The notes below the pieces were generated by a model. The model did not search any database. It saw only the letters and a list, made by a program, of their open reading frames with translations, and had not been told where the DNA came from. DNA of 64,000 bases from Rhodobacterales bacterium (lineage in GTDB: Bacteria > Pseudomonadota > Alphaproteobacteria > Rhodobacterales > Rhodobacteraceae). The stretch spans positions 1 to 64,000 of the forward strand of contig PDRY01000013.1 of assembly GCA_002748265.1 (NCBI GenBank). The letters run 5' to 3'. Shown one piece after another: positions 6,209-17,921 of the stretch (the stretch's first letter is position 1; each line of letters begins with the position of its first letter). The position numbers and the translations under genes were made by a program.

Positions 6209-6906
6209 GGTGCTGTCAGACGAATTCTTACTCGTCTCAGATGCCCGGGCTAGCGCGATTTTATGCCACACAGAATTGCCTCCCGTCGGAAACCGACTGA
6301 TCGCCGAGTTCCTTAAAGTGCAGTCGGCTAAGGAAGTGTTTCTGATGGCTGAAGAGGTTGAAGATGGCGAAGTGAACTGAGGTAAATGTCTTCAGTGAGG
6401 CCATTGACCGAAAGCGGCTCGGTACGATCCAAGTGTGTCGGTCACGATTTCATGCGGGGAGCCGTGCCTAGAGAGTCATTTGCTCAGCATTTTCAGTGCC
6501 GCGCTTCGATCTCGGCGCTTGGACGCATAGCTTTCGAGCACCACACCTTCGTGGTCGATGGCGCACCAGAGATAAAGTCACTCTCCATTGATCTTCACAA
6601 AGACCTCATCGAGATGCCACCGCCAGCTTGAGTGCATACTGGACCGTTGATGTCGGATATGCTTGGCAAAGATCGGGCCAAAGCGGTTCCACTCAAAGCG
6701 CAGGGTTTCGAGGCGGATATCGATCCCGCGTTCGTGCAGATGTCCTCAACTTGGCGCAAACTGAGCGGATAACGGATGTAGTACATCACTGTAAATCTGA
6801 TGATCTCGGGGCGGGTTTTGAAGTGTCCTAAAGGGGAGGGGCTGGTCATGCCACGAGGCTAGGTCTCCGCCTTGAGCTGCTCAAGCTGAGTTCCTCTGAC
6901 AGGACC
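6209..6906 (-). mobile_element. Decayed IS6-family element, copy A
   Basis: Terminal inverted repeats of the form CTGTCAGANGAA lie at 6213 and, inverted, at about 6903. Between them the minus strand encodes an IS6-family transposase in broken frames. From about 6849 come the N-terminal segment FKTRPEIIRFTVMYYIRYPLSL, then HLDEVFVKINGE, LYLWCAIDHEGVVLESY and EIVTDTLGSYRAAFG, interrupted by a frameshift after LRQVED and several stop codons. At roughly 700 bp it is shorter than an intact element of about 800 bp. It lies immediately before the CRISPR array and may have clipped that end of the locus. Confidence 0.8.
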
Positions 6907-6985
6907 CCTGGGGGAGATGCCTAATAGCAGGCAGTCTTAGGTGGCTGCCGTTCGAAGTGATCATATGGTCGGTATGCATTATGAC

Positions 6986-8339
6986 GTTGCGGCTGGACCG
7001 CGAATTTTGAACAGCTACAATCGCCTAGGACAACAAGATTGCCGCCGACAAGTTGCGGCTGGACCGCGAATTTTGAACAGCTACAATCGGTCCGGTGAAC
7101 GGTCACCGACGCGCCAGGTTGCGGCTGGACCGCGAATTTTGAACAGCTACAATAGCCGCTCGTCATAGGCGCCTCGGCCTAGCGTTGCGGCTGGACCGCG
7201 AATTTTGAACAGCTACAATTTGGTTGATCGTCACCCCGTCGCCGCGCACGTTGCGGCTGGACCGCGAATTTTGAACAGCTACAATTGCCTCGCGGTCGAT
7301 GATCGCCATCTCGGCGTTGCGGCTGGACCGCGAATTTTGAACAGCTACAATAACCAGCTTGTGGTCCGCGGGCAGGCGCTGTTGCGGCTGGACCGCGAAT
7401 TTTGAACAGCTACAATGCCGTCTCTAGACGCATGGTCACCATTCGGGTTGCGGCTGGACCGCGAATTTTGAACAGCTACAATGTCCAGCTCCGCGAGGAC
7501 GCCCGCCGCACGTTGCGGCTGGACCGCGAATTTTGAACAGCTACAATGCAGCGGCGCTATGACATCCGTGTGGATCTGTTGCGGCTGGACCGCGAATTTT
7601 GAACAGCTACAATCAGAGCGAACGGATAGTGATCGAGATCGTCGTTGCGGCTGGACCGCGAATTTTGAACAGCTACAATTCGCCGGATGCCGTTGTTAGC
7701 GCGATTGGGGTTGCGGCTGGACCGCGAATTTTGAACAGCTACAATAATTCAGTTGGGCATGTAGTCGGCAGACATGTTGCGGCTGGACCGCGAATTTTGA
7801 ACAGCTACAATCCAGGGCTTCGACAGGCGTCGGCCCCATGAGTTGCGGCTGGACCGCGAATTTTGAACAGCTACAATAAAGACGAACAAACCCAACAGGC
7901 TTTGCTTGTTGCGGCTGGACCGCGAATTTTGAACAGCTACAATGCATATTGCTCCGGGTCGACTTCCTCGATCGTTGCGGCTGGACCGCGAATTTTGAAC
8001 AGCTACAATGAGCGGATTAAAGCCAGCATCCTCAAGGCGGTTGCGACTGGACCGCGAATTTTGAACAGCTACAATGGATGGCAGCAGCGCCACGATGGGT
8101 GCGAGGTTGCGGCTGGACCGCGAATTTTGAACAGCTACAATAACCTCGACGGGGCCAGCGGCATCAGTGACGTTGCGGCTGGACCGCGAATTTTGAACAG
8201 CTACAATTGGGCTGCACATCACCACCGACAAAATCGAGTTGCGGCTGGACCGCGAATTTTGAACAGCTACAATGGTATCGTCCACGGAGATGGCAGAGCA
8301 TTTGTTGCGGCTGGACCGCGAATTTTGAACAGCTACAAT
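6986..8339 (+). CRISPR. Type II-C CRISPR array, 21 repeats and 20 spacers
   Basis: Twenty-one 36-bp repeats begin GTTGCGGCTGG and end CAGCTACAAT, spaced by 29-30-nt spacers (first repeat 6986-7021, last 8304-8339). All repeats are identical except repeat 17 (8040-8075), which has G to A at position 7. The end sequences (GTTG...CTACAAT) match the pattern of Neisseria-type II-C repeats, so crRNAs should read spacer then repeat on the plus strand, towards cas2. Each repeat ends in TACAAT, with CTGGAC 17 bases upstream, resembling a promoter inside each repeat. Open frames through the array are artefacts of the repeat period. Confidence 0.98.
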
Positions 8340-8412: not shown

Positions 8413-8757
8413 TCAAAAGAGCACCAGTTGCTTCGGATTTTCCCGAGCCGTTCTGCGGCCTTGGTCTGAGAAGTGCACGATATCACGATACTGTCGGTCT
8501 GTGAAATTCAGGATCTGAACGTCACCGGATTCTGGCAGGTTGCGTTCAATTCTTGTCACCCGGGTTGAAAATGCCTCCTTGCCGTTCACGAACCGCGCAT
8601 AAACCGAGAACTGGCTTCGTTCAAAACCTTCATCCAGTAAGAAGTTGCGGAAAGTGCCAGCGTCCTTGCGCTGTTTTCTTGTGTCTGTCGGCAGGTCGAA
8701 CATGACGAGAATCCACATCAGACGGTATCCTGATAGCTGTGTGTCGGCCGTGGTCAT
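8413..8757 (-). CDS. cas2: CRISPR-associated endoribonuclease Cas2
   Basis: 114 aa, the small ferredoxin-fold partner of Cas1 in the spacer-integration complex. The first beta strand WILVMFDLPTDT ends in the conserved Asp (D21). RKQRKDAGTFRNFLLDEGFERSQ and SVYARF follow in the usual Cas2 order. The ATG at 8757 overlaps the cas1 stop (ATGA), giving a cas9-cas1-cas2 operon. No csn2 or cas4 follows, which places the locus in subtype II-C. Confidence 0.96.
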   Translation of the reverse strand: MTTADTQLSGYRLMWILVMFDLPTDTRKQRKDAGTFRNFLLDEGFERSQFSVYARFVNGKEAFSTRVTRIERNLPESGDVQILNFTDRQYRDIVHFSDQGRRTARENPKQLVLF

Positions 8758-9665
8758 TTTCCCAACCCTGCAAAGGCAAGCGGATCAAGCGGGCGGGGCA
8801 GAGCGAGAGACAGTTTACCTGCCTCGAAGCTTTGGCCCAGTGAGGTCGCAAGTTTCATCAGGGCCACCGAGACGGGGGTGACCCCTTCGGCAAGGGGCAG
8901 GTCTGTGGCGATCAAGGAGGCAAGTCTTTGTTTGGCCTCGCTGTCGACGTCGGTCCCGCGTGTCGCGCGCAGGTTATGCGCCGCCATGTCAATCAGAGGC
9001 CGAAACGGCTCCATGAGGTCGTCAGCGAGAGCGAAAGCGTTGCCGCGATTGGCATGAAAGAGCCCGATCGTCGGGTGCAGGCCCGCCGCAACGACCGCAC
9101 GGGCCGTGGCGGCACGCAGAACGGTGTAGCCGTAGTTCAGCAGGGCGTTTGTCGCGTCCCCCGATGTGTCTCGGCGGAAGCTGTCGCCCATCATGCGAGG
9201 CCAATAGTAGCGCGCGGCCTGTGCCTCGATGTTGGTGCTGTCCCCTGAGGTGATCTTGCGGGTCATCATGTCAAGCGGAGCGGGGGCTTTACCAATGGCG
9301 GCCAGTGCGGCGGCCTGCATTCTCACTTTTGCGGTCACGACCTGTTTCCATGCTTGCTTGAGAAGCGGGGCTTTGGCCTGCCATTGGGCGCGCATTCGGG
9401 CACCTTGCGCGTGATGGCCTTCAAGCGGAAGCAGCACGGATCTCGGCGCGTGATTGGCGGCGCAAAGCACCACCGGCGCGCCGCGTTCGGCGAGCTCGAC
9501 CAAGAGGGAGGACGACCAAGTCGTGCCATGGGCGTGGACGATGACACCAGCAATCTGGTCCAGAGGGGTGCGACCGATCTCGGTCCCGTTTTCAGAGACC
9601 TTCAAGAACCCGCGGTCACGCGACAGGTGCCGCCCGTCGGTTGCGATATCAATAATCTGGTCCAA
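8754..9665 (-). CDS. cas1: CRISPR-associated integrase Cas1 (type II)
   Basis: 303 aa, the integrase of spacer acquisition. The predicted metal ligands are E147 (in GDSTNIEAQ), H204 (GLFHANRGN) and E219 (DDLMEPFRP), the E-H-E pattern of active Cas1. Length is normal for type II Cas1. A GAGGTG ribosome binding site precedes the ATG. The gene starts 80 bases after the cas9 stop. That gap holds a small palindrome, GTGTATTACAC (9709-9719), so a weak internal promoter is possible. Confidence 0.96.
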   Translation of the reverse strand: MDQIIDIATDGRHLSRDRGFLKVSENGTEIGRTPLDQIAGVIVHAHGTTWSSSLLVELAERGAPVVLCAANHAPRSVLLPLEGHHAQGARMRAQWQAKAPLLKQAWKQVVTAKVRMQAAALAAIGKAPAPLDMMTRKITSGDSTNIEAQAARYYWPRMMGDSFRRDTSGDATNALLNYGYTVLRAATARAVVAAGLHPTIGLFHANRGNAFALADDLMEPFRPLIDMAAHNLRATRGTDVDSEAKQRLASLIATDLPLAEGVTPVSVALMKLATSLGQSFEAGKLSLALPRPLDPLAFAGLGK

Positions 9666-9745: not shown

Positions 9746-12700
9746 TTAGGTCGTCGCTCCCGGATCGCGGATGCGCCCCATTTCGTCTACGTGGATACGA
9801 CGAAACCCGGATTTGATCAGGGATGTGCCTCCCATAGATGTAAACTTGAATGGGTCAGATGCATCACGGTTCCGGGCGTCTGCATTTGACTCCTGATGAG
9901 GTGCAAAAAACACTCCGTTTGAGCCTATTTTTTGCACATAGCCGATATGTTGCTCACCATCCTTTTCGAAGGCAACCATATCCCGCTTGAAAACTCGCAA
10001 GAGCCGCTTGGCGGCCGGGTGGGGCTTTTTGGGCGGCCCCGATTGGTGGGCTTCGAAGGTTGTGATGACCTGTGGTTTGATCTTGCCATCTGGCATGCGC
10101 CAGATTTCGTAGCAGTGGTTGCTATCGCCCTTATAGGCTTTGAAGACTTTGCCTGTCGGGTCGGCAATCGACACGCGGGCGCTTTCCTGCAAGCTTTCCT
10201 CAAGGCGCACGCGGCGCAGGCCGAAGTAAGGGTTGAGCGATTGATCCGGCAGTGTGCGCACGTTCGCAAAATCGGCCAGCGCCTGTTCGAAGGCCTTACC
10301 GTCCAGACCGTGGGTCACACGGGCCAGATGGCGTTGCAGGTCCGCGTCGCGAATATTGGCGCCGCGCTTGCTCACTTCGATGTCATTGGGCTTAAGTGAT
10401 AACAAGGGTTTCCGGCTAACCACGGTGTCCTTGCTGACCACACCATAGGCGGTGTCATTGTGCAGCTGTCCTGTGGTGCTGTCCCGCCCTGAGCGGCGCG
10501 CGGCGGGGTCAATGCGACCATGGTCAGCGCGGTGGCTGACGATGATCCGGTTGAGCTGGCTCGAGATATCAGCGCGAAACTCTTCCCATGGCGGTTCGGT
10601 GCTGCGGGCCACCTCTTCCGCGCCAGCCTGCTCGTCGCGTTTGGCCATGTCGCTGATCCGCTTGATCAGGCTCCGGTCTGTGGCCGCAACAACGGCGGCG
10701 TCGATCGCGTGATGGCGATGATCGGTGCGGTTCTTCGCTTTCACCGCGCCGTTCTTGTCCGGCAGCAGGCTGTTCAGCCCCCAATGACGTCGGAGCATTT
10801 CTGTCAGGCGGCCGGGCACGGCCCAGACATGGGATTTGCCATCAGCACCGTCATACAGCGTATTCAGGTAGCTTCGCGCAATGCGTGATAGGTATTGGGT
10901 GTCTTTGAGCGCCCGGTCCCGGAAGTCGTTTTCGCCCTCAAACCGCTCCATCGCATCAGGCGCAAACCGCCACGCTTTGTTTTGAGGGAGGTTCTTGAGA
11001 TTGACGGCGATGGCCTCCCACCCAGGGGTGTCGCCCCAAGCCTCCCACGGCGTCTTGTTGGTTTTTTGCCGGTTGAACTCTTTGAGGCACAGCGTGCGGT
11101 TGGCAAACCCGTCATCCAGCGTGCGCGAATAGGGCAGGATGTGGTCCACGTCGCAGGAGCCGTCAAAGAGCATCGCCGCGCTGATCCGCTCGCCGGAATA
11201 CGGGCAGAAACGCCTGAGGCTGTCCTCAGGGTTCAAGTCTTCCCAAAGGCGCAGGACCATGCGGTTGGCGCCGGTGTTAGGCACGCCCAGCTCTTCCAGC
11301 TTGTCGCCCCGCTTGATGGCGGCGTCGGTGTTCTTCTTGATGCTGCGCTGAACCTCGCGCTTCTGGTCCTCCGAGAGTTTGAGGTCGCGCGCGAGTTCGA
11401 CCACGATCTCATCGGGCTTGCCGTAGACGGTGATGATCTTGTTGACCAAACGCCGGAGTTGGTTCAGCCCGATATGGATCGTGGGGTTGGTGATGCGGCC
11501 ATAGCGTGTGATGTCGTCATCGGTGTCATCATAGGTGCCGGGGATGACATGGCGGGTCAGGACCTCCCCATAGTAGGGCAGTTCGTTCAGAATCTCTCCT
11601 GTGCGGTCATCCGAATGGTGCCAGCCGCAGCGCGCCACTGCTTCGCTGTAGGGGATCACATCCGCCTCCAGTTCGGCCAGGATGCGTGAGGTGGCCGTCA
11701 GCCCCAGCCGCCCGTAGCCTTCGGGCAAGGGGGCATGGGCGGTGTCTTCCGCCTTGACCCATTCCAACCCATGCTCTGCCACCAGCCAATCTACAAGCGC
11801 GTCATGCTGGGCCTCGCTCTGCACCTCACGGATGCGGCTGACCACCTCCCATTGTGTGTCTTGGCTCAAAGTTGACCAGCGCGGACCAAAGCGGCGCGGG
11901 TCTGAGAGGCTGGCGCGGACCGGGTCACAGGCGATGGCGTCACGGTTGGCGGTCTCCAGTGTGAAGCTCTGTTCTGGTCTGAGCTTGATGATCTTACCGA
12001 GCGCCTTGAGCTTCATGTTCATGCCCGAGAGCGTCTTGGTGTGGGGTTTGTTGTCCAGCGCGTGGACAATCTGGTCGCGCTCTTCCCGCGTCAAACGGCG
12101 CGCCGGTTCGCCGCGAGCGGCGATCCGCAGGGCGTTGACTGTCTCAACCAAAATGCGCCGCTGGTTGAGCGGATGCGCCGAAGGGATACGCTTTTCGTCG
12201 GTGAAGAGGCAGAGGCCAACCTCGGGGGATTTGAGCGGACGTTGGTGAAAGATGATCAATCTGATCTCGTTACGCAACGCATCGGACAGGGCAGGGTGGT
12301 GCTCTGCCTGCACCTGCCAGAGCTTGTCGAACTCATCGGCCAAGTGGCGGCGATCCGGATAGAAATCGTAGCCCGCCTCTTCCTTTTCGGAGTTGTCGCG
12401 GCGGGCCACAGTCAGACGCGTGCGCACTTGCGGGGTTTCGCGAGGCGTCGGCGCGCTTTGCCGACGTAGGTGCAAGAAGTGGCCGTAGGTTCGCTTGCTC
12501 GCGTCCGGAATGGCGATGGCCATCTCTTCATCAAGGCGTTTGGTCGCGTCCTTGATCTTGCCGCTCTCATTGTCGCCGCGGTCCGTCTTGCGGTTGGATT
12601 TGAACCCCCGCCTCTGGTTGAGGTGAAACAGCGCACGCCCGAAGTGAGACAGCTCGAGCTTGCGGTCCAGCCCCTCGGCGCGGAGCTGGTAAGGGTCCAA

Positions 12701-12985
12701 CTGCTCGAGCGCCTTCGCTTCATCCGGGTCCGCGGGCATCAGCCCGACCTCGGCCATGCGTTTCATCAATGCGGCCTTGCGGCGTAGAAATCTGTCCCGA
12801 CGCCGCCGCTGAGCCCGCGCCGCCCGACGGTCGACCGCCAAAGATGCTTTGGACTTGGGATCGCGGCCATCTGAGAAAATCCGCACGCCGCCATCAACCA
12901 CATCCGTGATTTCGCCATTTTGAATGGCGTAGAGCCACCAGCCAATGGAGTTTGTCCCAATATCAAGGCCCAGTCGAAATTCCAT
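9746..12985 (-). CDS. cas9: Cas9 RNA-guided endonuclease, subtype II-C
   Basis: 1079 aa, the size of compact II-C Cas9 proteins (Neisseria Cas9 is 1082 aa). RuvC-I is at the N-terminus with D8 in LGLDIGTNSIGW. The arginine-rich bridge helix spans about 52-76. RuvC-II has E530 (EIVVELARDLK). The HNH core is CDVDHILPYS with D614 and H615, followed by N629 and N638. RuvC-III has H759 and D762 (HHAIDAAVVAA). All catalytic residues are present, so both nuclease sites should be active. The rest is the WED/PAM-interacting region. The ATG at 12985 has a GGAGGA ribosome binding site; longer versions would run through the promoter. Confidence 0.97.
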   Translation of the reverse strand: MEFRLGLDIGTNSIGWWLYAIQNGEITDVVDGGVRIFSDGRDPKSKASLAVDRRAARAQRRRRDRFLRRKAALMKRMAEVGLMPADPDEAKALEQLDPYQLRAEGLDRKLELSHFGRALFHLNQRRGFKSNRKTDRGDNESGKIKDATKRLDEEMAIAIPDASKRTYGHFLHLRRQSAPTPRETPQVRTRLTVARRDNSEKEEAGYDFYPDRRHLADEFDKLWQVQAEHHPALSDALRNEIRLIIFHQRPLKSPEVGLCLFTDEKRIPSAHPLNQRRILVETVNALRIAARGEPARRLTREERDQIVHALDNKPHTKTLSGMNMKLKALGKIIKLRPEQSFTLETANRDAIACDPVRASLSDPRRFGPRWSTLSQDTQWEVVSRIREVQSEAQHDALVDWLVAEHGLEWVKAEDTAHAPLPEGYGRLGLTATSRILAELEADVIPYSEAVARCGWHHSDDRTGEILNELPYYGEVLTRHVIPGTYDDTDDDITRYGRITNPTIHIGLNQLRRLVNKIITVYGKPDEIVVELARDLKLSEDQKREVQRSIKKNTDAAIKRGDKLEELGVPNTGANRMVLRLWEDLNPEDSLRRFCPYSGERISAAMLFDGSCDVDHILPYSRTLDDGFANRTLCLKEFNRQKTNKTPWEAWGDTPGWEAIAVNLKNLPQNKAWRFAPDAMERFEGENDFRDRALKDTQYLSRIARSYLNTLYDGADGKSHVWAVPGRLTEMLRRHWGLNSLLPDKNGAVKAKNRTDHRHHAIDAAVVAATDRSLIKRISDMAKRDEQAGAEEVARSTEPPWEEFRADISSQLNRIIVSHRADHGRIDPAARRSGRDSTTGQLHNDTAYGVVSKDTVVSRKPLLSLKPNDIEVSKRGANIRDADLQRHLARVTHGLDGKAFEQALADFANVRTLPDQSLNPYFGLRRVRLEESLQESARVSIADPTGKVFKAYKGDSNHCYEIWRMPDGKIKPQVITTFEAHQSGPPKKPHPAAKRLLRVFKRDMVAFEKDGEQHIGYVQKIGSNGVFFAPHQESNADARNRDASDPFKFTSMGGTSLIKSGFRRIHVDEMGRIRDPGATT

Positions 12986-12990
12986 TGCAG

Positions 12991-13059
12991 TCCTCCAAAA
13001 TAACGAAGTTTGTTGGGGGTTGATTCTGAGCAAGGTGGCTGCCATAGTCAAGCTATGGC
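12991..13059 (-). promoter_or_regulatory. cas9 promoter, leader and operator-like inverted repeat
   Basis: Reading towards cas9: -35 TTGACT (13046-13051), a 17-base spacer, -10 CAGAAT (13023-13028), predicted start near 13015-13017, and ribosome binding site GGAGGA at 12991-12996. The arms GCCATAG and CTATGGC (13041-13047 and 13053-13059) form a perfect 7-bp inverted repeat with a 5-base centre lying over the -35 box, as expected for a repressor or activator operator. Promoter assignment is by eye. Confidence 0.6.
13005..13015 (+). other. Seed-match target of the putative natural guide RNA at the cas9 start site
   Basis: GAAGTTTGTTG here is identical to the 11 bases immediately 5' of the degenerate repeat at 13224. 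It lies at about +1 to +12 of the predicted cas9 transcript, on the strand and in the orientation expected for a Cas9 protospacer seed, followed by GGGGTTGA as the candidate PAM. Pairing stops after 11 bases (1 of the next 9 agrees), which would favour binding without cutting. Confidence 0.6.
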
Positions 13060-13285
13060 TCACCTTTGTGTGGGAGTATGCTGCCTGGGTCCACGCCAGG
13101 ATGTCGAAAACTAGACCAGCATGCATCTGTCGCAGGAAAACCATATCATTGGGACAAACATGGGTCCACACCATGTGCCATGCCAATTTCTCTTCTTGCC
13201 TTTTGGCAACGAGAAGTTTGTTGGTTGCGCCTTGGTCGCGAATTTTGAACTGGCTTGACCTTCGAGGTTTGGACCCCTAGCGTCA

Positions 13286-13371
13286 GGTTGTTCAAAATTC
13301 GCGGTCGAGCCGTTAACAAGCATTCGATTGCACCACATTGAAACGCAGGCTACGGCCTGCGTTTTCTTTTT
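13286..13371 (+). ncRNA. tracrRNA (short form)
   Basis: Bases 13288-13316 are a near-perfect anti-repeat: relative to the array repeat, an 18-base uninterrupted match plus a 5-base match across one mismatch and a small bulge. A tail of about 25 bases and a strong terminator hairpin follow, giving about 86 nt. A possible promoter is TTGACC (13255-13260), 17 bases, TAGCGT (13278-13283), which would start the RNA at the anti-repeat; the -10 is weak. It lies divergently upstream of cas9, a common II-C arrangement. Its role is to pair with crRNA repeats for processing and loading of Cas9. Confidence 0.88.
13341..13371 (+). terminator. tracrRNA rho-independent terminator
   Basis: The stem AAACGCAGGC (13341-13350) pairs perfectly with 13355-13364 over a TACG tetraloop, followed by TTCTTTTT. 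It is a classical intrinsic terminator and also the 3' hairpin of the tracrRNA. Confidence 0.88.
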
Positions 13372-13567: not shown

Positions 13568-13783
13568 TGAGAATTCGAGATGCCACCGCCAGCTTGAGTG
13601 CATACTGGCCCGTTGATGTCGGATATGCTTGGCAAAGATCGGGCCAAAGCGGTCCCACCCAAAGCGCAAGGTTTCGAGGCAGATGTCTTCGGCCCGGCGC
13701 AAGCAGGGCCGTTAGCGACGGGTCGTGGTGAGAGGATCGGTCACGGCCCCGCGCGGCTCAACCTATGTTCCTTTGACAGGACC
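13567..13783 (-). mobile_element. IS6-family remnant, copy B
   Basis: Bases 13567-13680 repeat copy A (about 6604-6720) almost exactly and in the same orientation, covering the transposase segment RFGPIFAKHIRHQ. The right end keeps the terminal-repeat-like ATGTTCCTTTGACAGGACC up to 13783. The left half of the element is missing. With copy A it brackets the whole CRISPR-Cas locus in direct orientation. Confidence 0.75.
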
Positions 13784-13937
13784 CTGGTCGAGATTGAAAG
13801 GTCGAGCGCTAAATAGAGCCCTGCTCTCTGCGTTGCTCGTATATGGATACAGAGGGCGCTGGCAGGCGCCGCAAAAGGTATGACACGTAACGTCCGTGAT
13901 GCAGAGCCGTGAAGGTTCCTTCCGCTCGACAGTACAA

Positions 13938-15386
13938 CTAGCCTAGCTGCCCCGAGGCGAAGGCCAATGTGGCTGCTGCTGACATCGCCGCGTGCTGGGC
14001 CTCGATCTGTGCGATTTCGGCATCCAGCAACAACTGCCGGGCCAGGCTCACTTCAGCGACACTCGCGAGGCCTTCTTCAGCGAATTTCATCGCTGCTTCA
14101 TAGCTGACCCGTGAGGTTCCAACCAATTCACGCGCAGCGATGTTCGCCGCCAAGGCCGACTGGAGGAGCTCGTAGGCTCCGACAATCTCGGCTTCGGCCA
14201 AAATCCGCAGCCCCTCGGCCTCGGCAAGGGTGGCTGCGTTTTGGTCGCGCGCTATGCGCAGGCGACGCTCTTTTGCACCACCGTCCCAAAGCGGAATTGT
14301 GATCCCAACAAACCCGGAGGCGATCGGACGATCCGTTCTGATAGTTGCCGCACCGGGAAGACGGCTGTCACTCAGGCTCGTGCTGCCAAGAGTGTGGCCC
14401 AAAGTCGCGGAGGCGACGATGCGAGGGCGGAATTCTGCTTCGACGGCGCGGGTGTGTTGTTCGCTGGCACGGGCACGTGCAAAGGCTGCTTGCAGGTCGG
14501 GCCTGCGGGACAGAGACCGCTCGATGTACCCGTCGAGCGCGGCCGGCACCTGATCTGGCAGGCGCACATGTGACGGGAATGCGGCGCGCACCGGGTGCCC
14601 TGCAGGCAAGCCCAAGCGTTGGGTCAGTATTGTCTGAGCGGCGCGGGTTTCCGAGCGTGCGCGGGCGAGGTCAAATTGTGCCTGTGCGACGGATTGATCA
14701 GCGCGGGCCACATCCGGGATCGTTGATAGTCCTTGATCGCGGCGTGCGCGGGCCGATTGCGACAGAGACCGCGCATTGGAGAGCCGCTGAGCGTGCACCT
14801 GTTCGCGCCGGGTTGCCGCATGTAGGTCGTGATAGGCTTGGGTGACCTCGTAGATCAGTGTCTGATGTGCGCCGGAAAAACCAACATTCGCAGCAAAGGA
14901 CAGCTCGCGTGCTTCTGCGCTTGCAGCGTCACGTTTGCCGAAGTCAAACAGCAACCAATGCAATGATACTGCCGCCATCGCGCGATTGCCGCCAAGCGAT
15001 ACCGTCCCATCAGGCAACAGACCTGCAGGATCTTGGTACCCTGCGCGGGTGCTGCGTGCCGCGCCTGCAAGGATCTGCGCGTTGATGCGTGGCAGATATG
15101 TGGTTTCGACCAATCCAACGGCTTCTGCTGCCTGACGTGCTCGTAACCAAGCCGCGCGCGTGCCCGGATTGTTGCGCTGTGCAACATCGATCAACTGCGG
15201 CAAGGTTAGCGGTGTGCTGGGAACGCCCTTTTCTTGTTGGTCGCGTCCGGCCAACACCCTCGCATCCGGTGCCACTTGAAAACCGTCTGCTCCGGCGATG
15301 GGGCGATCTGGTTGGTCTGGGGCCGTCACCGTCTGGGGGGCACAGGCGCACAGCAGGAACACTGCGAGGATCGAGGAATTACGCAA
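13938..15386 (-). CDS. Outer-membrane efflux lipoprotein, TolC/NodT type
   Basis: 482 aa. The N-terminus has a lipoprotein signal with lipobox LLCAC, so the mature protein should be lipid-anchored at the cysteine near residue 14. Two OEP repeats follow, rich in alanine-containing coiled coil (for example REQVHAQRLSNARSLSQSARARRDQG), as in trimeric channel-tunnels. It overlaps the end of the FUSC gene by 8 bases. It supplies the outer-membrane exit for the efflux system upstream, so this operon does not need to borrow TolC. Confidence 0.88.
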   Translation of the reverse strand: MRNSSILAVFLLCACAPQTVTAPDQPDRPIAGADGFQVAPDARVLAGRDQQEKGVPSTPLTLPQLIDVAQRNNPGTRAAWLRARQAAEAVGLVETTYLPRINAQILAGAARSTRAGYQDPAGLLPDGTVSLGGNRAMAAVSLHWLLFDFGKRDAASAEARELSFAANVGFSGAHQTLIYEVTQAYHDLHAATRREQVHAQRLSNARSLSQSARARRDQGLSTIPDVARADQSVAQAQFDLARARSETRAAQTILTQRLGLPAGHPVRAAFPSHVRLPDQVPAALDGYIERSLSRRPDLQAAFARARASEQHTRAVEAEFRPRIVASATLGHTLGSTSLSDSRLPGAATIRTDRPIASGFVGITIPLWDGGAKERRLRIARDQNAATLAEAEGLRILAEAEIVGAYELLQSALAANIAARELVGTSRVSYEAAMKFAEEGLASVAEVSLARQLLLDAEIAQIEAQHAAMSAAATLAFASGQLG

Positions 15387-16896
15387 GGGGCTCTCCTGTG
15401 GCGTGACGCAGTTTGCGGTTCAGGCGGGCGCGCGCTTCGGCGATGCGGTGCGCTTCGTCTTGATCCCGTCGCCCCTCGAAAGGGGCATAGTGTTGAAGAC
15501 GCTCCGCCTCAGCGATTTGGGTAGTTAGCCGCATGGCTGCCCGGCCCGACAGAGTGTGTCCCGCTGTGGCAGCAATATCCACGTCGAATTGGTCCAATAT
15601 ATCATCGACACGATCATTGACCGAAACGGGCCAGAGGATTGTGAAGACCGCCCAGACCGTCACAACACCAACAGCGATGCCTAGGACCCGCTCGATCGCA
15701 GTGGATGGGTCGGTCACTGGGCCAAAGCCCGCCAAGATGACCAAGAAATAGCACAGGGCCAGTTGCCACCCAGCATATGAGACACGTTCCGATCCCAAGC
15801 TGATCCAAGCAGCGGGAAAAGCTCCCAAAGCCACCAGTACCAGGAGATGTCCGAGGTCGCTCAGGTGGGGCATCAGCCCAAACAGGACGAGAGCGCCCAA
15901 CAGTGCCCCCAAAATCGCGCCGGTTAGCCGCAAGGTGATTTTGTGCCGTGTCTCCGCTCCAGTGCCTAGCGCGACAAAGAAACACGTGATCATGGCCGTA
16001 TGAATTTCGAACAGGTCACCAATCGAATAGATTCCATAGGTGATCATGACGGCAACCATAACCTTGACGCCAAAATGAACATGCGTGGGATTGGTCAATA
16101 GATCGGGCCTGAACAGGGGTGGTTTGACCGCTGGAGCCGCGGGTGGTGGCGGGCCCGTGCGTTGAGGCAGATCCGCTTGCGCGCGCGCTAGGTCGAGATA
16201 GCTGGCCTCTGCTTGTGCCGCCAGGAAGTCAGCGTCCTGACCGCGCGCGTGGCCAAGCAATCGTGCCTTCCCGAGCCATCCGTCCATGCGCGTGCCGCCT
16301 TCGTCCAGGAGCGTGTGGGCGGCTTGACTGTGCGGTGCCCCCATCGCGTCGCGGCGTTGTGCTATCAGGTTGGCGGCTTGGTCACGTGGGCTGGCGCCGG
16401 TGAAGATCGCCATGACTGCCAACAAAGCCATCGGCACAAAGGTCACGACCCACATCCAAGCCAATGCGTGGCTCAGCAATGCAGGCACAGGCACCACGTC
16501 GTAGAGCGTGACCGAAAAGGCAAAAACAAAGGTTGCCGTGCCCAGCATCGGTGCGGCGCGGCTTGCGTGTGCCAAGGTCATTCCAAACAACGTGATCCCG
16601 CATAGCAGCCCCAATCGCCAAGGGGGACTATCAACGGCCAAGCGTAACAATGGCTGCGCCACGGGGATCGCGATGGTCGCAGCTACGATCAACATCAGCG
16701 CAGACAGGACCGCGGAGCCCGTGTCGTCTTTCCATGCAAAGAATATCAGGTAGCAAGACAGTGCGGCCTCGGGAATGCGGAGAGCCATCGCGATGCTGAC
16801 GGTTGCCATGCACAGCACGGTGATTTGCAGGCTGCCGCGCCATCGCTCGGGGGTTGGGGCGAACTCGGTCCACAGGGGGGCGGCGCGGGTCGTCAA
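15379..16896 (-). CDS. FUSC-family inner-membrane transporter (AaeB-like)
   Basis: 505 aa with two blocks of about five hydrophobic segments separated by a hydrophilic middle region, the FUSC layout of the AaeB aromatic carboxylic-acid efflux pumps. It is shorter than E. coli AaeB (655 aa), mainly in the soluble parts. The ATG overlaps the stop of the HlyD-type gene (ATGA). Together with the neighbouring DUF1656, HlyD and TolC-type genes it forms a complete efflux operon. The substrate, probably aromatic or phenolic acids, is inferred from the family. Confidence 0.87.
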   Translation of the reverse strand: MTTRAAPLWTEFAPTPERWRGSLQITVLCMATVSIAMALRIPEAALSCYLIFFAWKDDTGSAVLSALMLIVAATIAIPVAQPLLRLAVDSPPWRLGLLCGITLFGMTLAHASRAAPMLGTATFVFAFSVTLYDVVPVPALLSHALAWMWVVTFVPMALLAVMAIFTGASPRDQAANLIAQRRDAMGAPHSQAAHTLLDEGGTRMDGWLGKARLLGHARGQDADFLAAQAEASYLDLARAQADLPQRTGPPPPAAPAVKPPLFRPDLLTNPTHVHFGVKVMVAVMITYGIYSIGDLFEIHTAMITCFFVALGTGAETRHKITLRLTGAILGALLGALVLFGLMPHLSDLGHLLVLVALGAFPAAWISLGSERVSYAGWQLALCYFLVILAGFGPVTDPSTAIERVLGIAVGVVTVWAVFTILWPVSVNDRVDDILDQFDVDIAATAGHTLSGRAAMRLTTQIAEAERLQHYAPFEGRRDQDEAHRIAEARARLNRKLRHATGEPLA

Positions 16897-17921
16897 TGCT
16901 CAGCCTTGTCGCTTGGCCCCAGGATGCGGACCGAAACCGAAAGCCCTACGCGGGTCAGATCCGTCGGCGGGTCGTGCAGCTCGATCTCTACCGGAAACCG
17001 GCGTGCGGTGCGGACCCAATCAATTCGGTTCGCCACAAGAGGCAGCCCCATCAGCTGCGCTTCCTCGGTTGAGCGTATCGCCCACCCGATGCCCGTTACG
17101 ACGCCTTCGATTGCGCGATCTGGCGCGGCCAGCAAATACACACGCGCTGCGTCGCCTTCGCGGATGACGGGCAGGTCGGTTTCACGAAACAGCGCGCTCA
17201 CATGCCAGTGTGCGGTATCCACCAAGGAAAACAGTGGTGTGCCCGTGACAACGTATTCTCCGGGGTTCAACGTCAGACCCGTAATGCGCCCTGCCGTTGG
17301 GGCCCGCAGCGTGGTGTTGCGCAGGTTGCGCTCCGCCAAGGCGACAGATGCCCGCGCCAGATCGACCTGCGCCTGGCGACTGTCGAGGGTGCCGACGAAG
17401 CCGCCGGTGCCCGCGGCGTGGGCCAACGCCTGATCAAGCGTGACCTGCGCATCGTCGACGGCGGTGCGCGCTGTGTCGACTTCTTGTTCGGTGACATAGC
17501 CGTCCTCGAGCAATGGCTGCAGGCGTTCCAGCGTCTGTTGCGCAAGAAGCAGGTTGTTGCGAGCGCGATCGATTTGCTTGATCGCCACATCTGCATTTGA
17601 TTTTTCCAGATCTAGATTGCGTTGTCCCTGTGTGAGTTCGGATCGCGCCGTGGCGAGTGTGGCCTGCGCCTGTGCCAGCTGAAGCTCGTAGGGCTCAGGG
17701 TCCACGCGAAACAAGGGATCGCCCTCGGCAACCAGCGCATTGTTTTTAACCAAAACCTCGACAACGCGGCCGGGCACGGTGGCCGACAGTTTTATGATGG
17801 GCGCGGCGATTTCTGCAGCATCCGTTTGCGGGAAACGCTCGGCTTGTCGCAAGGCATGGATGCACAGCCCGATAGCGGCGGCGATGGTCACAAGGGTAAG
17901 CAGACGGAATACAGCTTTCAT
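16893..17921 (-). CDS. HlyD-family periplasmic adaptor (AaeA-like)
   Basis: 342 aa. One N-terminal membrane anchor (LLTLVTIAAAIGLCIHAL), then a lipoyl half-motif (ATVPGRVVEVLVKNNALVAEGDPLF), a coiled-coil hairpin with repeated short heptads, and the second half (LRAPTAGRITGLTLNPGEYV). The order matches membrane fusion proteins that bridge inner-membrane pumps to outer-membrane channels. Its start is 3 bases after the DUF1656 stop. Confidence 0.9.
   Translation of the reverse strand: MKAVFRLLTLVTIAAAIGLCIHALRQAERFPQTDAAEIAAPIIKLSATVPGRVVEVLVKNNALVAEGDPLFRVDPEPYELQLAQAQATLATARSELTQGQRNLDLEKSNADVAIKQIDRARNNLLLAQQTLERLQPLLEDGYVTEQEVDTARTAVDDAQVTLDQALAHAAGTGGFVGTLDSRQAQVDLARASVALAERNLRNTTLRAPTAGRITGLTLNPGEYVVTGTPLFSLVDTAHWHVSALFRETDLPVIREGDAARVYLLAAPDRAIEGVVTGIGWAIRSTEEAQLMGLPLVANRIDWVRTARRFPVEIELHDPPTDLTRVGLSVSVRILGPSDKAEH

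Follow-up and report, generated by a model that had tools for sequence, protein, structure and literature searches.

We examined a stretch of 64,000 nucleotides (the window) that carries a compact CRISPR-Cas locus. The minus strand encodes Cas9 (9746..12985; 1,079 aa, with RuvC and HNH domains), a Cas1 of the type II kind (8754..9665) and Cas2 (8413..8757), and a plus-strand array (6985..8338) holds 21 repeats and 20 spacers, every repeat ending in TACAAT. Type II-C loci are defined by cas9, cas1 and cas2 without csn2 or cas4 in the operon and by a Cas9 of about 1,000 to 1,100 aa. With its Cas9 of 1,079 aa, its type II-kind Cas1 and its Cas2, the operon is of this subtype; the scan covered the operon and the three genes beyond it, which form an efflux system. 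The genes at 13938-17921, adjoining the tracrRNA, resemble an MdtNOP-type efflux operon and showed no link to CRISPR. Direct repeats at 6609-6907 and 13575-13784 (95% and 72% in parts) lie on both sides of the CRISPR-Cas locus and are possibly the remnants of a mobile element.

A single-guide layout upstream of cas9

The tracrRNA lies on the plus strand, with its anti-repeat at 13290..13319 and a terminator hairpin followed by a T run at 13340..13371. An initial annotation had placed a degenerate CRISPR repeat upstream of the anti-repeat on the same strand, and we confirmed its coordinates (13224..13259). The first 27 bases of this repeat are mostly retained: compared by eye, 23 of them (13224-13250) are those of the array repeat, as are only 2 of the last 9. 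Together, 13221-13250 and 13290-13319 make up a 30-nt inverted repeat with 77% complementarity. The RNA from 13198 to 13371 was predicted to fold into a single long repeat:anti-repeat hairpin plus the terminator, at -77.4 kcal/mol compared with a mean of -50.3 for shuffled sequences (z = -6.1). Guide, repeat and anti-repeat thus follow one another on one strand with a terminator at the end, which is the layout of a natural single-guide RNA.

The guide segment of this presumed RNA, GAAGTTTGTTG (13213..13223, plus strand), recurs exactly at 13005..13015 on the same strand, as had been claimed. The recurrence is 11 nt within the guide, or 12 nt counting the first base of the repeat, and the next 5' base differs. 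The earlier chance estimate of about 1e-4 is correct (250 positions on 2 strands divided by 4^11). The copy at 13005-13015, the self-target, had also been assigned to the predicted start of cas9 transcription, and this placement held: on the minus strand, TTGACT (13051-13046) and CAGAAT (13028-13023), spaced by 17 nt, form a sigma-70-like promoter (13023..13051) by consensus match only, so that the target spans approximately +1 to +12. Adjoining the target is the presumed PAM, GGGGTT (13016..13021, plus strand), assigned from the targets and spacers of relatives. Beside the guide's own copy the adjoining bases are GTTGCG, and the target-side PAM is missing. About 11 matched nucleotides at a cas promoter beside a PAM, the PAM being drawn from relatives and not from the window's spacers, is an arrangement of the tracr-L kind. 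An exact inverted 12-mer (12950-12961 and 13148-13159), located in cas9 codons and beside a conserved element, was taken as chance.

The predicted transcript start near 13204 was not supported: no sigma-70-like promoter was found on the plus strand between 13040 and 13300, where promoters of other kinds may still lie. By eye, a possible promoter for a short tracrRNA (TTGACC, 17 nt, TAGCGT; 13255..13283, plus strand) was noted below the threshold of the promoter scan. The conserved element is GGTCCACACC-like and present in an outer (13086..13098) and an inner copy (13161..13173), both on the plus strand. The inner copy is overlapped by a possible second cas9 promoter (TGGACC, 17 nt, TATGGT; 13140..13168, minus strand; consensus match only). 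In the genome of the window, GGGTCCACACC occurs twice, once at this locus.

Guide and target change together across lineages

Relatives were collected by searching with the window Cas9, which had matches in 25 of 195 relatives, 28 of 394 family genomes and 31 of 390 order genomes (overlapping samples), and at 32 loci in genome_contigs, which overlap with the genome sets. Two layouts were found upstream of cas9. In the short layout (30 loci) the tracrRNA lies near cas9, whereas a longer intergenic region with a standalone degenerate repeat marks the long layout (24 loci). The long set comprises the window (WIN), L008, L032, L036, L039, L041, L042, L046-L050, L052-L057, L059, L071, L074, L076, L086 and L090; the remaining fetched loci were left unplaced, mostly for want of a recognised cas9 start or tracrRNA nexus. 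Among the carriers of the long form are the cultured environmental strains Yoonia vestfoldensis DSM 16212 (L039) and Hephaestia caeni DSM 25527 (L057). Later sampling covered 125 genomes of L048's genus (11 with a match) and 254 of L057's family (25 with a match), and ten further long loci were judged usable (L358, L359, L361, L364, L370, L371, L373, L375, L376 and L378). From the L057-family search we set aside L374, L380 and L381, which have no cas9 start motif, and L372, L383, L390 and L391, in which no nexus was found by pattern (L372 was read as short); L366, L384-L389, L392 and L393 were left out. From the L048-genus search, L360, L362 and L363 were left out, and L354-L357 were taken, from their coordinates, as already in the set.

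On a Cas9 tree of 54 proteins built by a quick method (22 long, 29 short and 3 outgroup; L052, L056 and L080 were left out), 11 changes of layout are required, and 8 or more of these fall on well supported branches. Shuffled labels required 16.7 changes, compared with the 11 observed; the layout is therefore also clustered. Short loci without the module are scattered over the tree. Among the early branches, the sphingomonads, L008 and Paracoccus are long, and one early branch consists of three short loci. We tentatively read this tree as that of an old trait lost repeatedly.

For each long locus, the 11 nt preceding the degenerate repeat were compared with the region from cas9 to the guide, taking the best ungapped match on both strands. 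An own-target match was found in 19 of the 24 loci, at 11/11 in ten and at 10/11 in nine, counts that are not independent since the matched loci are akin to one another. L041, L052, L059, L074 and L076 stayed below 10, with L076 at 9 and the others, in descending order, at 8, 7, 7 and 7; L052 carries only a cas9 fragment, 198 aa in frame. L008 entered the set through its match, and leaving it out gives 18 of 23. The repeat starts of L008, L049, L050, L056, L059 and L090 were set by reading. When guides were placed on the regions of other loci, 7 of 552 pairs reached 10/11 and no pair reached 11/11; single-base-shuffled regions gave at least 10 in 36 of 9,600 trials (10 in 33, 11 in 3). Set against these controls, the own-target count indicates a match kept by selection across relatives.

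The letters of the guide differ completely between lineages while the match within each locus persists. Between close loci the paired changes can be followed base by base. A single guide position separates the window from L046, and the corresponding base of the target is changed as well. L047 departs from these two at another position, in guide and target alike, and L048 and L049 are distinguished by three neighbouring positions, again in both copies. The proposal that an alignment of relatives would reveal a degenerate repeat plus a match upstream of each locus's own cas9 was thus borne out in the 19 matching loci.

In the later sample, 7 of the ten further long loci matched at 10 or 11 of 11 (L359, L361, L364, L370, L371, L373 and L375), and L358 (8/11), L378 (8/11) and L376 (9/11) did not; L366, one of the loci left out, scored 8/11. 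Of the seven, the fixed blind procedure alone recovered L361, L364 and L370, and it also gave L368, identical in sequence to L053. The L359 match was found by visual reading, and L371, L373 and L375 came from a screen requiring G at +2, the second base beyond the target; they are uninformative on that G because the screen demanded it. A whole-locus screen for guide-like 11-mers was rejected as too noisy. A stricter screen took in 54 loci, of which 30 (L161-L190) belong to other families of the class and 24 had been collected before; the cas9 start motif was missing in 7. It gave matches in 13, of which L008 alone was kept, its match lying before a tracrRNA copy, and the others were taken as chance. 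The silence of this screen on other families is weak evidence, because it missed L056 and L090 even though these match.

Two loci showed peculiarities of their own. L008 (G054:C19) has two tracrRNA copies, and the guide of the second has an 11/11 target between the copies, not at cas9; this guide may act on its own RNA or on a cas9 promoter farther away. Upstream of cas9 in L376 (G1343:C29), the likeness of guide and target extends over 18 nt, in inverted orientation; the two bases adjoining the PAM position differ, and no PAM was seen.

The match ends at a fixed length. In the 19 matching loci, 200 of the 209 cells at positions 1-11 agree, compared with none of the 19 at position 12 and 7 of the 76 at positions 12-15. 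At a chance rate of 25% these last two counts have p values of 0.0042 and 0.00045, respectively; because column make-up alone gives 19% identity, the value for position 12 is nearer 0.02 than 0.004. Position 12 matched in one of the seven further matching loci (L373), or 1 of 26 with the first set. In L371, guide-target likeness resumes past position 11 after a one-base shift, a pattern that an insertion into a once longer match would leave; it was seen in one locus only.

We weighed two explanations in which the guide has no function as such. The two 11-nt copies might be the operators of a DNA-binding protein that controls both cas9 and the tracrRNA, the likeness to a guide being accidental, and paired short direct repeats near two promoters are indeed common for operators. 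However, one copy ends at the repeat boundary and only the other has a PAM-like flank, and matching stops at position 11 in 19 of 19 loci. Because the letters are wholly different between lineages while the match to a repeat-bounded guide is kept inside each locus, we consider a protein operator extremely unlikely. The degenerate repeat might otherwise be a functionless relic, left by an old array or by the duplication from which the anti-repeat arose. Its degeneracy fits such an origin, as do the 29 short loci of the tree that manage without it, with the switches on well supported branches, and the similarity beyond 11 nt in L371 and L376, as expected after a duplication. A relic, however, would not stay matched while both copies change, nor would it retain the G at +2 described below, and we regard this explanation as very unlikely.

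The position of the target relative to cas9 varies. A TTGAC-type cas9 promoter with the target 2-8 nt past the -10 box was found, by consensus match, in 8 of the 19 loci (WIN, L032, L036, L039, L042, L046, L047 and L071). In L048 the target is upstream of the predicted -35, several other loci have no placed promoter, and in the Paracoccus loci and L008 the target is not at a recognisable cas9 start. A GTCCACACC-like element precedes the guide in 18 of the 24 long loci, in one or two copies with at most 2 mismatches, including 13 exact copies in 12 loci; counted from the repeat, their positions are roughly -113 to -152 and -45 to -76. Among the short loci, 6 of 30 have one copy at two mismatches and none a closer one. 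The arms of the element are complementary (3.19 pairs in a row compared with 1.98 when permuted; maximum of 2,000 permutations, 2.65). On the minus strand, in 8 of the 19 matched loci, a copy holds TGGACC with a hexamer starting in TA 17 nt on, and by this resemblance the element is perhaps a second cas9 promoter.

Bases shared beside the target

The bases flanking the target are also conserved. All 19 targets have G at +2, 18 have a purine (A or G) at +3, 18 have A or T at +5, and 16 have T at +6, although the A/T at +5 and +6 may partly stem from the promoter. The consensus NGRNNT was written down before we searched for protospacers. We then compared 490 spacers from 26 arrays with 164 sequences (2.44 Mb), mostly Mu-like phage contigs, fetched with two proteins of Thiobacimonas phage vB_ThpS-P1, a phage matched by a spacer of L032. 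Nine spacers had a match at no more than 5 mismatches, and reversed spacers had none. Spacer L032_35 had four exact copies, flanked by GGAGAT, GGAACT, GGAACT and GGAGCT, and L032_34 had five, flanked by TGGGCC, TTTTCA, TGGCCT, TGGCTT and TGGGCG. The other flanks were CGAGCT for L032_10 (29/30), CGGCTG for L032_32 (28/30), GGAGAT for L039_1 (27/30) and CGGCAA for L058_4, a spacer of a short locus (26/31). The protospacers of L032 and L039, which come mainly from the one L032 array, agree well at +2 (G) and +3 (A/G), and at +6 (T) in part only. Spacers of the L043, L046, L034 and L056 arrays had no match in the phage collection.

The expectation that protospacers would agree with GGGGTTGA as the PAM was therefore upheld in part: those of L032 and L039 are compatible with it, and the three matches of the window's own spacers, WIN_3 (30/30, CGCGAA), WIN_0 (28/30, TGGCGG) and WIN_19 (27/30, CTGGTA), do not fit NGRNNT. 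A PAM drawn from these three was rejected; they consist of one phage match (27/30) and two matches at a single place in the window's own genome. Protospacers in the own genome, two of the three, may lack a working PAM or seed, as expected of self-targets. That place (G000:C27:223291-223378, L120), matched by two window-array spacers at 30/30 and 28/30, lies in a region where one weak match to a functionally uncharacterised family of phage proteins was found; the array may target a prophage there, or the contig may come from another source (the genome is 88% complete and 3.8% contaminated). Viral contigs searched with a protein of the self-targeted region and with one 21-base stretch of a spacer gave no match, and a search of 16 genomes of array-bearing relatives gave, beyond the arrays, one 26-base match that failed over the whole spacer.

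Among the further loci, the flanks were GGAAAT (L359), GGAAAC (L364) and AGGCAT (L370), and those from the screen requiring G at +2 were GGGGGT (L371), GGAGTT (L373) and GGGTGT (L375). The flank of L361, CGCGAC, does not fit the PAM. L361 (10/11) and L076 (9/11), distant relatives with 48% identity, both have opposite-strand matches near cas9, and the L076 flank is GACGAC; from these letters the two may use another PAM.

These flanks bear on a further alternative, that the long tracrRNA is an antisense RNA whose guide pairs with the 5' leader of the cas9 mRNA and causes a translation block or RNA cleavage without DNA binding. The orientation would permit pairing with a covering cas9 transcript in 17 of the 19 loci. 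Antisense pairing, however, does not need the PAM-like flank, which is conserved, and the opposite-orientation targets of L053, L054, L361, L370, L371, L373 and L375 cannot pair with cas9 mRNA. Because of this flank and these seven loci, we favour DNA binding and give the antisense explanation little probability.

Probable Cas9 autorepression in type II-C loci

We consider it highly probable that the long tracrRNA is a natural single-guide RNA by which Cas9 binds without cutting and represses its own promoter. The autoregulation suggested for this compact II-C locus in the initial annotation is supported by the covariation in relatives and by the PAM from L032 and L039. On a single strand, the long form would run from guide through repeat, linker, anti-repeat and nexus to terminator, and Cas9 loaded with it would find its site by the 11 matching base pairs and the adjoining NGR(NNT) PAM where cas9 transcription begins. 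By analogy with the II-A case, 11 pairs would be enough for binding and too few for cutting, so that Cas9 is proposed to block RNA polymerase and hold down its own operon. The block would be released when Cas9 is diverted by crRNAs or anti-CRISPRs. We infer that the long RNA is made, that Cas9 is bound at the target and that repression occurs without cutting. Counted against this model are the failure to find a promoter before the guide and the 5 of 24 and 3 of 10 long loci without a match of at least 10.

The closest known system is tracr-L of the Streptococcus pyogenes type II-A locus. According to the available parts of the respective papers, the 5' part of this long tracrRNA matches the cas promoter over 11 nt beside a PAM (PMC8616872, PMC12216829, PMC11417352), or over 9 nt (PMC8730458), and lets Cas9 repress its own operon (PMC8616872, PMC8730458, PMC12216829, PMC11417352). 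The locus described here shares with tracr-L a presumed long tracrRNA whose guide matches the cas promoter over 11 nt beside a PAM. It differs in being of type II-C, in its alphaproteobacterial hosts, in its PAM and in the long and short layouts scattered over related Cas9s; moreover, expression and repression have been demonstrated for tracr-L and are predicted for the II-C case. CreR RNAs, which regulate cas genes in types I-B, I-E and V-A, have a partial match to the cas promoter that leads to autorepression, according to the accessible text of PMC13131331. They resemble the present RNA in being crRNA-like, in the partial promoter match and in autorepression, which is predicted here, but they serve other effectors and have no tracrRNA fused to the guide. 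In the portions at hand, the Francisella scaRNA is described as having a diverged repeat that works with tracrRNA and Cas9 (PMC8730458), and the II-C scaRNA of Neisseria meningitidis as post-transcriptional (PMC13431127). Both are likewise small RNAs of type II loci used in gene regulation, but they are separate RNAs with other target genes.

The available text of PMC8616872 gives tracr-L as absent from other subtypes. Among the matches listed, the searchable literature contained no description of tracr-L-like autorepression in type II-C, although the Workman 2021 and Shmakov 2023 surveys could mention II-C; the word tracr-L did not occur in the available parts of two II-C papers (PMC12080349, PMC13431127).

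A broader interpretation, which we put forward tentatively, is that alphaproteobacterial II-C systems had a natural single-guide RNA for Cas9 autorepression from early on and often lost it with the whole module; selection may keep exactly 11 matched bases while guide and promoter drift in lockstep, and each self-target may record the PAM of its Cas9. In that interpretation a twelfth matched base would start to allow cutting, which would be why the guide is held at 11. If the autorepression model is true, RNA-guided self-control reaches from type II-A to the compact II-C Cas9s of environmental bacteria, and the 11-nt stop in unrelated guides would show, in nature, where Cas9 binding gives way to cutting. 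The self-targets would permit the PAM to be read where phage matches are rare, and the presence of long loci next to short ones amounts to a natural experiment on the cost and gain of restraining Cas9.
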